DNA of 64,000 bases from Shewanella japonica (GTDB lineage Bacteria; Pseudomonadota; Gammaproteobacteria; Enterobacterales; Shewanellaceae): NCBI RefSeq assembly GCF_002075795.1, contig NZ_CP020472.1, positions 3,207,001-3,271,000 on the forward strand, given 5' to 3'. Under the pieces are notes generated by a model. It was not told the origin of the DNA. It worked only from the letters and a program-made list of their open reading frames with translations, and made no database searches. Both the position numbers and the translations under genes were made by a program. Shown here in pieces: positions 4,050 to 6,870 of this stretch (the stretch's first letter is position 1; each line of letters starts with the position of its first letter).

Positions 4050-4147
4050 ACATAACGCCCTAATAATGGGCCAAAAATAGTTTGCTAAAATGTTGAGGAA
4101 CGAAAACAGCAAACTGTTTTTTGTCCTTATTAATTAGCTTGTTATGT
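4050..4147 (-). other. attC site (cassette 4152-4676)
   Basis: Cores ACATAAC and GTTATGT, outer arms GCCCTAATAATGGGC, central arms GTTTGCTAAAAT / CAGCAAACTG. This is the 3' end of the cassette nearest attI. Confidence 0.9.
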
Positions 4148-4151
4148 GGCG

Positions 4152-4676
4152 CTATAGCAAACCTGACTTTGATGTCTTGTAGATAATGCCGTAAATACAT
4201 TTATATTCAACTTGAACGCTAAATCGCCTTAGTTTACTTGCAACCAATTTGTGGTCATCTTCTGATATAGAAGAATCACAAAACACTATAAGGTTGTCAG
4301 AATGCCCAACTGAAAGAGCTGAATGAGGTTCAATATGTGACACTTCTATTTTGGTTACTACTTCATTTATTTCTAATGTTTCAAATAAGGACTTATAGCA
4401 CTCACGATTTTTAATTTTGACTTCATTGTTATCAACAAAAAACTTGATATGGCTTATAAAGGCAGGACCTAAACCTAAATTTTTTAACTCACAGCGCAAC
4501 CCTTGCAATGGTTTATTAACCCATGAAAAGTCTACATATGGTTTAGCTGATAATCGGTTATGCTTCCGTGTTTGTAAACCTTGCCATATAGTTAGCCCTA
4601 AGACTAACAATGCGATCACCACCGAAGCCAGAGCAATCCAATCACTTGCTTCAAATATTTTTAAACTCTCAGGCAA
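4152..4676 (-). CDS. First cassette: membrane-anchored protein of unknown function
   Basis: About 174 residues from a TTG at 4676, chosen because GGAGG stands seven bases upstream; an in-frame ATG at 4697 lies in the attI/cassette junction and has no such signal. A transmembrane helix (IALASVVIALLVLGLTIW) is followed by TRKHNRLSAKPYVDF and a roughly 130-residue mainly beta cytoplasmic domain with GLGPAFISHIKFF. One TM followed by RKHN-LS--P is common in small bacterial proteins of unknown role. As the first cassette it should be the best expressed from a promoter in the intI region. Confidence 0.75.
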   Translation of the reverse strand: MPESLKIFEASDWIALASVVIALLVLGLTIWQGLQTRKHNRLSAKPYVDFSWVNKPLQGLRCELKNLGLGPAFISHIKFFVDNNEVKIKNRECYKSLFETLEINEVVTKIEVSHIEPHSALSVGHSDNLIVFCDSSISEDDHKLVASKLRRFSVQVEYKCIYGIIYKTSKSGLL

Positions 4677-4693
4677 GATGCAACCTCCGTGCC

Positions 4694-4760
4694 ACATAAC
4701 AGCTTATTATATAGCTGCTCGATAATGTTCCTGTTCAAATTAAACTTAGTAGCAACGATA
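4694..4760 (-). other. attI recombination site (extent approximate)
   Basis: The first cassette joins here at CACATAAC (GTTATGTG in cassette sense). Beyond it there is no second inverted core of an attC, only AGCTTATTATATAGCTGCTCGA, which has short inverted elements of the kind found in attI sites. It lies between intI and the first cassette. Boundaries cannot be fixed by eye. About 210 bp of AT-rich sequence separates it from the palindromic promoter. Confidence 0.7.
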
Positions 4761-4970
4761 CTAAGCCAACCGACTGTTTATTATGAATAATAATTTTAGT
4801 TCCTATTAATTTATTCTATATCAACAGGGTAAAATCGAGCTTCTTAATGTAGAGGTCTCTACAATCTTTTGCTAAGTATCATTATTTCAATAACTTAACA
4901 ACATCTTAGAATTTTATCGAGCAAAGAACTATCATTTTTTGCTCACTTTTCTCGCAATTTTTCAAAAAAG

Positions 4971-5002
4971 AATTATAACTGTATATATATACAGTTATAA
5001 TT
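4971..5002. promoter_or_regulatory. 32-bp perfect palindrome: LexA box within a two-way promoter
   Basis: The half-site AATTATAACTGTATAT is followed by its exact complement. The centre, 4979-4994, is CTGTATATATATACAG, a perfect CTGT-N8-ACAG LexA box. TTATAA and TATAAT flank it with a 17-base spacer, and because of the symmetry the same -35/-10 pair exists on both strands: rightwards to intI (start 5014) and leftwards to attI and the cassettes. LexA control of integron integrases is established in other systems; control of cassette transcription from the same box is inference. Confidence 0.85.
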
Positions 5003-5013
5003 AAGTAATTCCT

Positions 5014-5970
5014 ATGAAGAAGCCAACTTTTATTGAAGCTATCAGAGAACAAATTAGGGTTCGCCATTATAGTTTGCAAACCGAGAAATCTTATCTCTAC
5101 TGGGCGCGCTATTTCATCCGATATACCCAAATCAAAAATGCACGCGAATTAGCGCCCTCTCATATTGAGTCCTTCCTGTACTATTTAAGCAACCAACGTG
5201 GGGTTAGTGCTAGTACACAAAAACAAGCATTGTGTGCACTTGTGTTCGTATTTAAGCATGTTCTTGAAGTTAATACTGATAACCTCAATTTTCCTTATGC
5301 GAAAGCCCCTGGCCGTATCCCTCAAGTATTAGATGCTCAACAAGCCAAGCTCATCATTAACCTAATGAATGGTCAGTACAAAATGATAGCAAGCATCCTA
5401 TACGGTAGTGGACTTAGGCTTAATGAAGCACTCAGTTTAAGAGTGAAAGATATTGATTTCACTCACCGTACAATTTTTGTTTTTAGAGGCAAGGGGCAAA
5501 AGGATCGAGTCTGCTTATTACCAGACTGCACTGTTGATAGTCTTGAGGAGCAAATTGAAAAAGTAAAAGGAATACATCATAAAGATATTAAAGCTGGTTT
5601 AGGCTTCACTTCATTGCCACCCTCACTGTTTAGAAAGTATCGGCAAAGCATTAATCAGTTTCACTGGCAGTATATATTCCCAGCTTCCCGCCTATGTGTT
5701 CACCCTATTGATGGCTATATTTGCCGTCATCATATTCATCCGTCTGCATTTGGCCGTGCATTAAGAATTGCAACAACACAGGCACAAGTAGCTAAACGAG
5801 TCACTGCACATACTTTCAGGCATTCGTTTGCAACTCAACTGCTACAACACGGAGCAGATATAAGAACCGTACAAGAGCAGCTTGGACATAAGGATCTTAA
5901 AACAACTCAGCTTTATACCCATGCGGCGGGTATCAACCAAACAGGTATAGTCAGCCCAATGGACAGATAA
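5014..5970 (+). CDS. intI: Integron integrase (tyrosine recombinase)
   Basis: 318 residues, the normal length for chromosomal IntI. The N-terminal SAM-like domain covers about residues 1-95 and the catalytic domain 105-310. Catalytic residues visible: Arg in YGSGLRLNEALSLR, the HTFRHSFATQLL box (H-x-x-R), the GH of QLGHKD, and Tyr in TTQLYTH. The extra helix specific to IntI, absent from XerC/D, is present as SLPPSLFRKYRQSINQFHWQ. It recombines attI with attC sites, the latter as folded single strands. The gene is intact. The LexA box 20 bp upstream indicates SOS induction. The leader from the predicted promoter is very short and has no clear Shine-Dalgarno. Confidence 0.96.
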   Translation: MKKPTFIEAIREQIRVRHYSLQTEKSYLYWARYFIRYTQIKNARELAPSHIESFLYYLSNQRGVSASTQKQALCALVFVFKHVLEVNTDNLNFPYAKAPGRIPQVLDAQQAKLIINLMNGQYKMIASILYGSGLRLNEALSLRVKDIDFTHRTIFVFRGKGQKDRVCLLPDCTVDSLEEQIEKVKGIHHKDIKAGLGFTSLPPSLFRKYRQSINQFHWQYIFPASRLCVHPIDGYICRHHIHPSAFGRALRIATTQAQVAKRVTAHTFRHSFATQLLQHGADIRTVQEQLGHKDLKTTQLYTHAAGINQTGIVSPMDR

Positions 5971-6159: not shown

Positions 6160-6779
6160 AATGTGGCATAAATGAGTTATATCCCCTACATTCATACGCT
6201 ACAAACCTTTTAACTCTCTAATCAAATTCACTCAAATTCTAGAAAGCAAAAAGCCCGCTACAAAATAGCGGGCTTCTCTAAATATGGTGGAGAGATAGGG
6301 ATTTGAACCCTACATTGATGCGCTACAACCTGTTAAGTATATTCCGAAATAACTTAAAACCCAGAAAGCAAAAAGCCCGTCACTTTGCAGTAACGGGCTT
6401 CTCTAAATATGGCGGAGAGATAGGGATTTAAACCCTACATTCATGCGCTACAAACCTTTTAACTCTCTAAGCAAACTCACTCAAATTCTAGAAAGCAAAA
6501 AGCCCGCTACAAAATAGCGGGCTTTTCTAAATATGGCTAAGAGATAGGAATTTGAACCCTACATTGATGCGCTACAAACCTTTTAACTCTCTAATCAAAC
6601 TCACTCAAATTCTAGAAAGCAAAAAGCCCGCTACAAAATAGCGGGCTTTTCTAAATATGGCGCAGAGATAAGGATTTGAACCCTACATTGATGCGCTACA
6701 ACCTGTTAAGTATATTCCGAAATAACTTAAAACCCAGAAAGCAAAAAGCCCGCTACAAAATAGCGGGCTTCTCTAAATA
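6160..6779. repeat. Tandem repeats of tRNA-Ser 3' end plus terminator
   Basis: Downstream of tRNA-Ser, a unit of about 124 bp recurs. Copies of the tRNA tail with its encoded CCA (tgg on the + strand) begin at 6285, 6410, 6534 and 6658, and the true tRNA at 6780. A more decayed copy lies near 6170. Each copy keeps about 28 bases of the tRNA (acceptor 3' strand and T arm). A hairpin AAGCCCGCTA...TAGCGGGCTT recurs at 6251, 6500, 6624 and 6746, with a variant using CCCGT/ACGGG at 6373-6400. Two spacer types occur, one with CTGTTAAGTATATTCCGAAA and one with CTTTTAACTCTCTAA. The design recalls the tyrT 3' repeats of E. coli. Confidence 0.9.
6746..6770 (-). terminator. Terminator of tRNA-Ser
   Basis: AAGCCCGCTA-CAAAA-TAGCGGGCTT directly after the tRNA gene, followed by T-rich sequence on the - strand (TTTTTGC). 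The same hairpin is repeated further downstream with each tail copy. Confidence 0.85.
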
Positions 6780-6870
6780 TGGCGGAGAGATAGGGATTTG
6801 AACCCTAGATGGGCTACAAACCCATGCCGGTTTTCAAGACCGGTGCATTCGACCACTCTGCCATCTCTCC
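6780..6870 (-). tRNA. tRNA-Ser (UGA)
   Basis: 91 bases with encoded CCA. Acceptor stem GGAGAGA/TCTCTCC, anticodon loop CTTGAAA (anticodon TGA, reading UCN), a long variable arm (CATGGGTTTGTAGCCCAT) typical of serine tRNAs, and T arm GGGTTCAAATCCC. Discriminator base is G. Confidence 0.97.

Follow-up and report, generated by a model that had tools for sequence, protein, structure and literature searches.

SOS control of integron integrase genes is established (PMC3108266). Whether the same switch can also govern transcription of the cassettes is the question raised by an element in front of the integrase gene intI of Shewanella japonica. The element is a perfect palindrome of 32 bp (4971-5002) in a stretch of 64 kb, referred to here in its entirety as the window. 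A first-pass annotation had proposed that the palindrome is one symmetric LexA operator that could switch intI and a leftward cassette promoter (start near 4965) together, so that damage would both shuffle and express the array. Spelled out as a model, this gives two equal promoters, one serving intI with a start at ~5008 and the other, with a start at ~4965, acting as the principal cassette promoter. In Vibrio cholerae the intI and cassette promoters have CRP in common, but not SOS (PMC3948777). The analysis below indicates that the element is an SOS operator of a known kind in an unusual symmetric variant, and that joint SOS control of the cassettes is possible.

The window harbours a chromosomal (sedentary) integron, in which intI is divergent from an array with attI, seven attC-like sites and cassette ORFs on the - strand. 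The intI gene (5014-5970, + strand) encodes an integron integrase of 318 aa (TIGR02249, 350.1 bits at a cut-off of 265), which among the plasmid matches listed is closest to a protein of a Shewanella baltica OS195 plasmid (61.5% identity). The attI crossover point, between TAA and C on the + strand and between G and TTA on the - strand, lies at 4697-4700 (- strand), where homology with L017, the locus with the nearest integrase relative, and with other relatives starts; in a 17-row alignment homology begins at TAAC/AGCTTATT in most rows, and the cassettes further left differ. A first cassette ORF of 181 aa (4152-4697, - strand; 0 NCBIfam matches) begins at the crossover in the ORF list and is transcribed away from intI, as are the longer ORFs left of intI. 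Its start codon sits in the core site (GTTATG, with the crossover after the first G; 4690-4702), and the translation start of the first cassette is thus set by the attI junction. The attC of this cassette (4053-4146, - strand) and further attC-like sites at 362, 838, 1292, 2202, 2704 and 3653 were recognized from repeat families D1-D5, and the repeats start with TAACGCC at all seven sites, 4053 included. A 15-nt inverted repeat (TGCTCGATAATGTTC / GAATTTTATCGAGCA, 87% complementary) has one arm at attI (4716-4730) and the other near the integrase promoter (4909-4923); it is partly kept in L017, and its arms are possibly integrase-binding sites. A 91-nt unit is repeated in tandem some 255 bp downstream of intI (6225-6870); its five copies have a spacing of 122-125 bp, and the later ones are 63-95% identical to the first. 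Each copy contains a hairpin-like repeat and the last overlaps the 3' end of an intact tRNA-Ser gene (6780-6870, - strand), an array that looks like the scars of repeated integration at a tRNA gene.

The symmetry of the element was read correctly in the first pass. The palindrome (AATTATAACTGTATATATATACAGTTATAATT) equals its own reverse complement, and is composed of AATTATAA-CTGTATATATATACAG-TTATAATT; no other perfect palindrome in the window reaches 18 bp. As also described before, TTATAA (4973-4978) and TATAAT (4996-5001) are separated by a spacer of 17 bp holding the LexA consensus CTGTN8ACAG (4979-4994), and by symmetry the same set is found on the other strand. However, TTATAA shares just 3 of 6 bases with the -35 consensus TTGACA, and a consensus promoter scan requiring at least 4/6 at -35 listed the TTATAA-N17-TATAAT promoter on neither strand. 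The local G+C around the palindrome is 0.29, and the chance of eight mirrored flank pairs around an existing box of 16 bp was estimated by hand at ~0.294^8 = 6e-5; the palindrome exceeds chance expectation. The S. japonica genome contains 54 CTGTN8ACAG sites, i.e. 53 besides the one in the palindrome, and none of the 35 of these 53 that were examined shows eight mirrored flank pairs. The best of the 35, a single G+C-richer and terminator-like site, has seven. Mirrored flanks as a general trait of LexA-type boxes are thus unseen in this partial control, in which most of the 53 sites are probably not real LexA sites.

The box itself (CTGTATATATATACAG, 4979-4994) is the exact gammaproteobacterial LexA consensus (PMC3108266) and is located at -35 relative to the intI ATG with 0 mismatches (first box base counted as 0, intI at +35). 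LexA is present in the same genome, its gene (232137-232739, - strand, 264.2 bits) being preceded by CTGTN8ACAG boxes at 232748 and 232767; these tandem boxes just upstream of lexA belong to lexA itself. A consensus box 35 bp before intI, together with a lexA gene carrying its own tandem boxes, makes SOS control of intI very likely, in line with what had been noted before as known biology. Indeed, the sequence features of an SOS-controlled integron integrase promoter were found: an integron integrase downstream, an E. coli-type LexA box within -100/+50, and a LexA of matching type in the host. The site at 4979-4994 is therefore very probably a LexA operator for intI of the known kind. LexA binding at the palindrome, like every start site given here and the strength of any transcript, is predicted from sequence. 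In undamaged cells a LexA dimer on 4979-4994 would cover the integrase -10 and the start region, keeping intI off, and RecA-driven cleavage of LexA would switch intI on. An E. coli-type box is likewise present in the LexA-controlled PintI promoters of V. cholerae intIA, V. parahaemolyticus intIA and class 1 intI1, and in V. cholerae and some mobile integrons it overlaps the integrase -10, which has been called the 'classic operator organization' (PMC3108266). The window differs from these systems in that the flanks are mirrored over 32 bp and that the integrase -10 also reads as a consensus -10 in the leftward direction. Control of intI by an RNA hairpin was considered and rejected: predicted transcripts from 4986 and 5008 fold no better than shuffled sequences (z 0.68 and 1.62).

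The conservation pattern of the element was read directly from relatives. Searches with IntI were positive in 79 of 129 genus genomes (E <= 1e-60) and in 61 of 99 relatives (E <= 1e-40). The sequence in front of intI was read at 87 loci (L016-L062 and L112-L151, L151 being the same place as L017), and a box with at most one mismatch precedes intI in 72 of them, 41 at an IntI identity of at least 50% and 31 below. Left out of this count were 15 loci: L017 with L151 (one place; box CTGT-N6-ACAG); L023, L028, L040, L051 and L143, with a mobile-element end within the box; and L035, L037, L061, L129, L132, L141, L144 and L149, with no box near intI, a contig end or a partial gene. A one-mismatch box candidate in L129, the left flank of which is off-pattern, was excluded, and L036 and L119 were retained despite a partial gene match. 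For the flank counts, numbered with the first box base as 0, loci were grouped by IntI identity into a closer set (at least 50%, 41 loci) and a distant set (31 loci), each with 24 non-redundant members. Promoter scores and mirrored-arm tests are based on a hand grouping of 37 and 28 loci (24 and 21 non-redundant), over which the identity grouping adds L041, L145 and L147, three loci that fit less well. Outside the genus 31 of 49 loci were read.

The mobile-element ends within the intI LexA box were found in G056 (L023), G049 (L040), G143 (L051), G047 (L028) and G140 (L143). The first three have a common end (GGATAGCCC), in the same orientation in L023 and L040 and in the opposite one in L051, and presumably belong to an element resembling IS1595; L028 and L143 share a different one (GAAGAGCC). 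In L023, L040, L051 and L028 the missing left half of the box is retrieved ~1.1-1.4 kb upstream. Recurrent insertion in the box would sever intI from SOS control.

Comparison with related integrons, the check that the first-pass annotation had proposed, separates the two arms of the palindrome: the left arm ATTATAA is kept, whereas the right arm is not. In the closer set (n = 24 non-redundant) the left flank has T -5 and T -3 in 24/24, A -4 in 23/24, A -2 in 24/24, and T -6 and A -7 each in 21/24, against 10-14/24 at positions -8 to -12. The flank types are ATTATAA (15), ATTATAC (3), ACTATAA (2) and four variants seen once each. No such conservation is seen in the right flank, with 16/24 at the best and 14/24 at the next of ten positions counted. 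In the distant set the left flank is (A/G)ATAATA in 17/24, with A -6 kept in 20/24 and T -2 in 21/24, the same four-base spacing as in the closer set. Boxes were also found among the 31 loci read outside the genus, without a common ATTATAA flank; several boxed loci there have a CTTGACA/CTTGCA-like -35 on the left, mostly ~19-26 bp from the box, a position compatible with a promoter that approaches from the left.

These flanks point to the left arm as the site of the integrase -10. Among rightward promoters, TATAAC at -5..0 is the best conserved in the closer set (mean 4.85, z 5.6), a hexamer without the final T that is strongly conserved in -10 elements; in the distant set (21 loci) AATACT at -4..+1 comes first (z 4.4). 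Each overlaps the box from the left. TATAAC is present in the window at 4974-4979 (+ strand), where its last base is also the first of the LexA box, and predicts a start at ~4986 and a leader of 28 nt for intI. A weak putative -35 at 4951-4957 (+ strand), CTCGCA with a 17-bp or TCGCAA with a 16-bp spacer, aligns with TTGCAA/TTGGCA-like stretches of relatives. By the sigma-70 score, which uses general sigma-70 base frequencies, the symmetric promoters of the window reach 6.6 versus 3.7 for this conserved integrase -10. The right-hand TATAAT predicts a start at ~5008, only 6 nt before the intI ATG; as the conserved integrase -10 it is ruled out for the relatives by the unconserved right flank, and in the window the 6-nt leader makes it unlikely. 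Of the intI promoter as first annotated, the LexA box before intI stands, but TTATAA-N17-TATAAT as its promoter is doubtful, with the right arm unconserved and the best conserved -10 in the left arm. The integrase promoter would rather have its -10 in the left arm and its start at ~4986, and we consider it probable, with some reserve, that the element combines an SOS operator with an integrase -10 in the left arm, the cassette promoter being located elsewhere.

The mirrored right arm (TTATAATT, 4995-5002) is, judged from its distribution, a lineage-specific addition. The nearest integrase relative (L017, G051; 83% identity) lacks it, and its box is two bases shorter; with CTGT-N6-ACAG in place of CTGT-N8-ACAG, SOS control may be lost there. 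The pattern TTATAA-CTGTN8ACAG-TTATAA was found at six sites in 5 of 129 genus genomes. Three of these precede a full-length intI (G000, G100 contig 15 and G115); the others precede a cut intI ORF of 213 aa (G148), an intI start with broken frames (L172, G100 contig 1) and an integrase remnant (L175, G003). A reversed-pattern control gave no occurrences among the genus genomes listed. In the order 5 of 394 genomes have TTATAA-box-TTATAA, two of them outside the genus (G202 and G085), and no integrase is present among the ORFs listed for these two loci (L177 and L178). Both have longer palindromes, CATTATAA-box-TTATAATG in L177 (G202) and GAATTATAA-box-TTATAATTC in L178 (G085), the latter between converging ORFs. 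The version of the distant set, ATAATA-box-TATTAT, was found in 2 of 129 genomes, both times before intI. The full form of 32 bp was seen only in the window among the loci read.

With the sister row L058 removed, 3 of 44 non-redundant loci have mirrored arms of at least six pairs; with L058 included, 4 of 45 do. A column shuffle gave a mean of 0.24 for the 3/44 (P 0.0015), whereas re-dealing of whole flanks gave a mean of 1.64 (P 0.095), a weak test since the left arms are nearly identical; the distant set alone, with 1 of 21 mirrored, is not above chance (P 0.17). The recurrence in 3 of 44 loci suggests that the right arm may not be neutral. In the IntI tree the window groups with L017 (support 100/99), and L058, L021 and L056 belong to another supported clade; the right arm would thus have arisen at least twice, or have been gained and then lost, and the mirroring of arms seems to have had more than one origin.

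In E. coli, quasipalindromes are known to mutate by template switching, and at a quasi-palindrome like this one such switching offers a simple cause of the right arm. A purely mutational origin of this kind, in which the polymerase switched template and copied the left arm across the LexA box and no new function arose, is a good candidate, though we hold it at somewhat less than even; it concerns the right arm only and is compatible with the other readings. It accounts for copies that follow whichever left arm is present: TTATAA stands beside TTATAA in the window, in L058, L056 and L142, in L172 and in L175, GTATAA beside TTATAC in L021, and TATTAT beside ATAATA in L120 and L126. TATCACA likewise stands beside TGTGATA in L076, a Chromatiaceae MAG outside the genus, where a different integrase LexA box has seven mirrored flank pairs (TGTGATA...TATCACA). 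The placement of the window and of L058, L021 and L056 in different supported clades also agrees with such an origin. On the other hand, in L038 and L040, which look related to L175 when judged by eye, single substitutions could have produced the right arm (CCATAATG, CTATAATG, TTATAATG), and 8 of 8 genus sites of both mirrored patterns stand before the start or a remnant of intI, a possible hint of selection. This position says little, because the patterns include the intI-typical left arm. Selection for symmetry is possible.

With the integrase promoter placed in the left arm, the question of joint control becomes one of what the same arm does in the other direction. Read leftward, the left flank spells TATAAT without a mismatch in 18 of the 24 closer loci (mean -10 score 5.37 of 6.0, z 6.2), located in the window at 4972-4977 (- strand) with a predicted start at ~4965, and shares bases with the integrase -10. 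This conservation, invisible from the window alone, is the best evidence for the idea of the first pass, although no conserved leftward -35 was found among the 24 closer relatives; in the window the leftward sigma-70 elements at the box match 6/6 at -10 and 3/6 at -35. The weight of the leftward -10 depends on whether it is anything more than a reflection of the rightward one. TATA is its own reverse complement, so that any TATA-rich -10 looks bidirectional. It may accordingly be a by-product, the same operator transcribing only intI with no leftward RNA and the cassettes being read from a constitutive Pc close to attI, a reading that we regard as a serious but minority possibility. The rightward TATAAC shares four of the six bases of the leftward -10 and the leftward -35 is unconserved, as expected of a by-product, but A -7 and T -6 serve the leftward element alone and are kept beyond the needs of TATAAC, so the leftward -10 may be under selection of its own and may deserve more weight than it is given here.

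Promoters nearer to attI bear on the same point. The leftward promoter best conserved there is anchored to the crossover and starts ~50 nt from attI (z 3.3), with a TTTACA-type -35 in L026, L027, L050 and L052. V. cholerae also has inverse integrase and cassette promoters in the space between intI and attI, co-regulated through one cAMP-CRP site, and its Pc starts 65 bp from attI outside the SOS regulon, unlike the leftward candidate of the window, which lies on the LexA box with its predicted start 265 nt from the attI crossover (PMC3948777). Four toxin-antitoxin systems of the V. cholerae array respond to mitomycin C with increased expression, but LexA does not control them directly (PMC5963079). 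Against the by-product reading, the attI-proximal motif of the relatives is poorly kept in the window. Rival cassette promoters could nevertheless be predicted there on the - strand by promoter scoring: TTAATA-N18-CATAAT (4780-4809, start at ~4773, 73 nt before the crossover), also found by the promoter scan, and TTGGCT-N19-TTTAAT (4739-4769, start at ~4732). The cassettes would then be read mainly from promoters nearer attI (4730-4810). A leftward terminator between the box and attI was rejected, the hairpin at 4919-4944 being listed as terminator-like on the + strand only.

The preferred arrangement, with the cassette promoter elsewhere, leaves room for a weak leftward transcript. Like many -10 elements, the left arm comes close to symmetry, and in the direction of attI it again gives a consensus -10, so that departure of LexA may release a weak leftward RNA from ~4965 together with the intI mRNA; judged from geometry, a polymerase starting at ~4965 would have to straddle the LexA site. 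In the bidirectional promoters described by Warman and Grainger, both directions use one near-symmetric -10 with positions -7 and -11 in common, and the divergent starts fall within 7-25 bp (PMC10268837, PMC12825309), usually 18 bp apart (PMC10268837); such promoters are said to yield 19% of the E. coli RNAs detected (PMC12825309). The left arm has an A and a T four bases apart that can be read as -11/-7 on both strands (A -7 21/24, T -3 24/24), and the divergent starts predicted from it are 18-21 bp apart. Its geometry thus fits that of bidirectional promoters, but the shared -11/-7 reading leaves the rightward spacing from the -35 at only 13-15 bp. The element further differs from those promoters in carrying a LexA operator and in having divergent starts predicted from sequence alone. 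No paper on a bidirectional intI/cassette promoter turned up in the open-licence literature searched; one on gene-less cassettes states for its antisense case that no such promoter was identified. Some LexA-controlled leftward RNA from a bidirectional promoter is, in our estimate, quite conceivable, if on balance rather less likely than its absence. A broader reading, in which integrons of the genus keep a bidirectional SOS promoter, the LexA-covered shared -10 of the left arm firing intI and an attI-directed RNA only after damage and new first cassettes being transcribed on capture, is unlikely though worth stating; the mirrored right arm would then make the switch nearly or fully symmetric in the window, L058, L056, L142, L175 and L120.

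Among known integrons, a close precedent for a cassette promoter at the box is PC2 (P2) of class 1, which lies just upstream of intI1 and overlaps its LexA site (PMC3108266). For PC2 to work, GGG must be inserted, which lengthens its spacer from 14 to 17 bp and breaks up the LexA site (PMC3108266). In the window the spacer is 17 bp while the LexA box is intact and without insertion, unlike the active form of a PC2-type promoter. In the attI2 region of class 2 integrons PintI2 and several Pc promoters are located between intI2 and the first cassette, with a LexA-like box at PintI2 (PMC5559693). LexA does not bind that box, the centre of which includes 4 G/C, whereas the centre of the window box is all A/T, and class 2 intI2 is SOS-independent (PMC5559693).

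The model of two equal promoters on one symmetric operator is improbable, and so, equally, is the leftward RNA as main cassette promoter: the symmetry is perfect, the cassettes run leftward, leftward TATAAT recurs in relatives, and in the window none of the 291 positions from attI to the box outscores the box-anchored leftward promoter, but the -35 of the model is poor, its rightward start leaves a leader without a Shine-Dalgarno sequence, its right arm is unconserved and missing in L017, among 19 non-redundant loci with a recognized attI the box-anchored leftward promoter comes out top of this interval in only two (the window and L058; L042 and L117, of the distant set, have the -10 one base off the scored position), Pc of V. 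cholerae is down 2.1-fold with mitomycin C (PMC3948777), and the class 2 cassette promoters lie in attI2 (PMC5559693). Of the proposed joint control of intI and cassettes, a leftward TATAAT beside the LexA box with cassettes in the right orientation thus stands, but a joint cassette promoter, with no conserved -35 and a top rank in so few loci, is doubtful.

Should no useful RNA run leftward, the palindrome would still be a naturally occurring case of a LexA operator with symmetric flanks. If the bidirectional reading were true, a LexA-covered promoter directed towards both attI and intI would couple capture of cassettes to their expression under stress.
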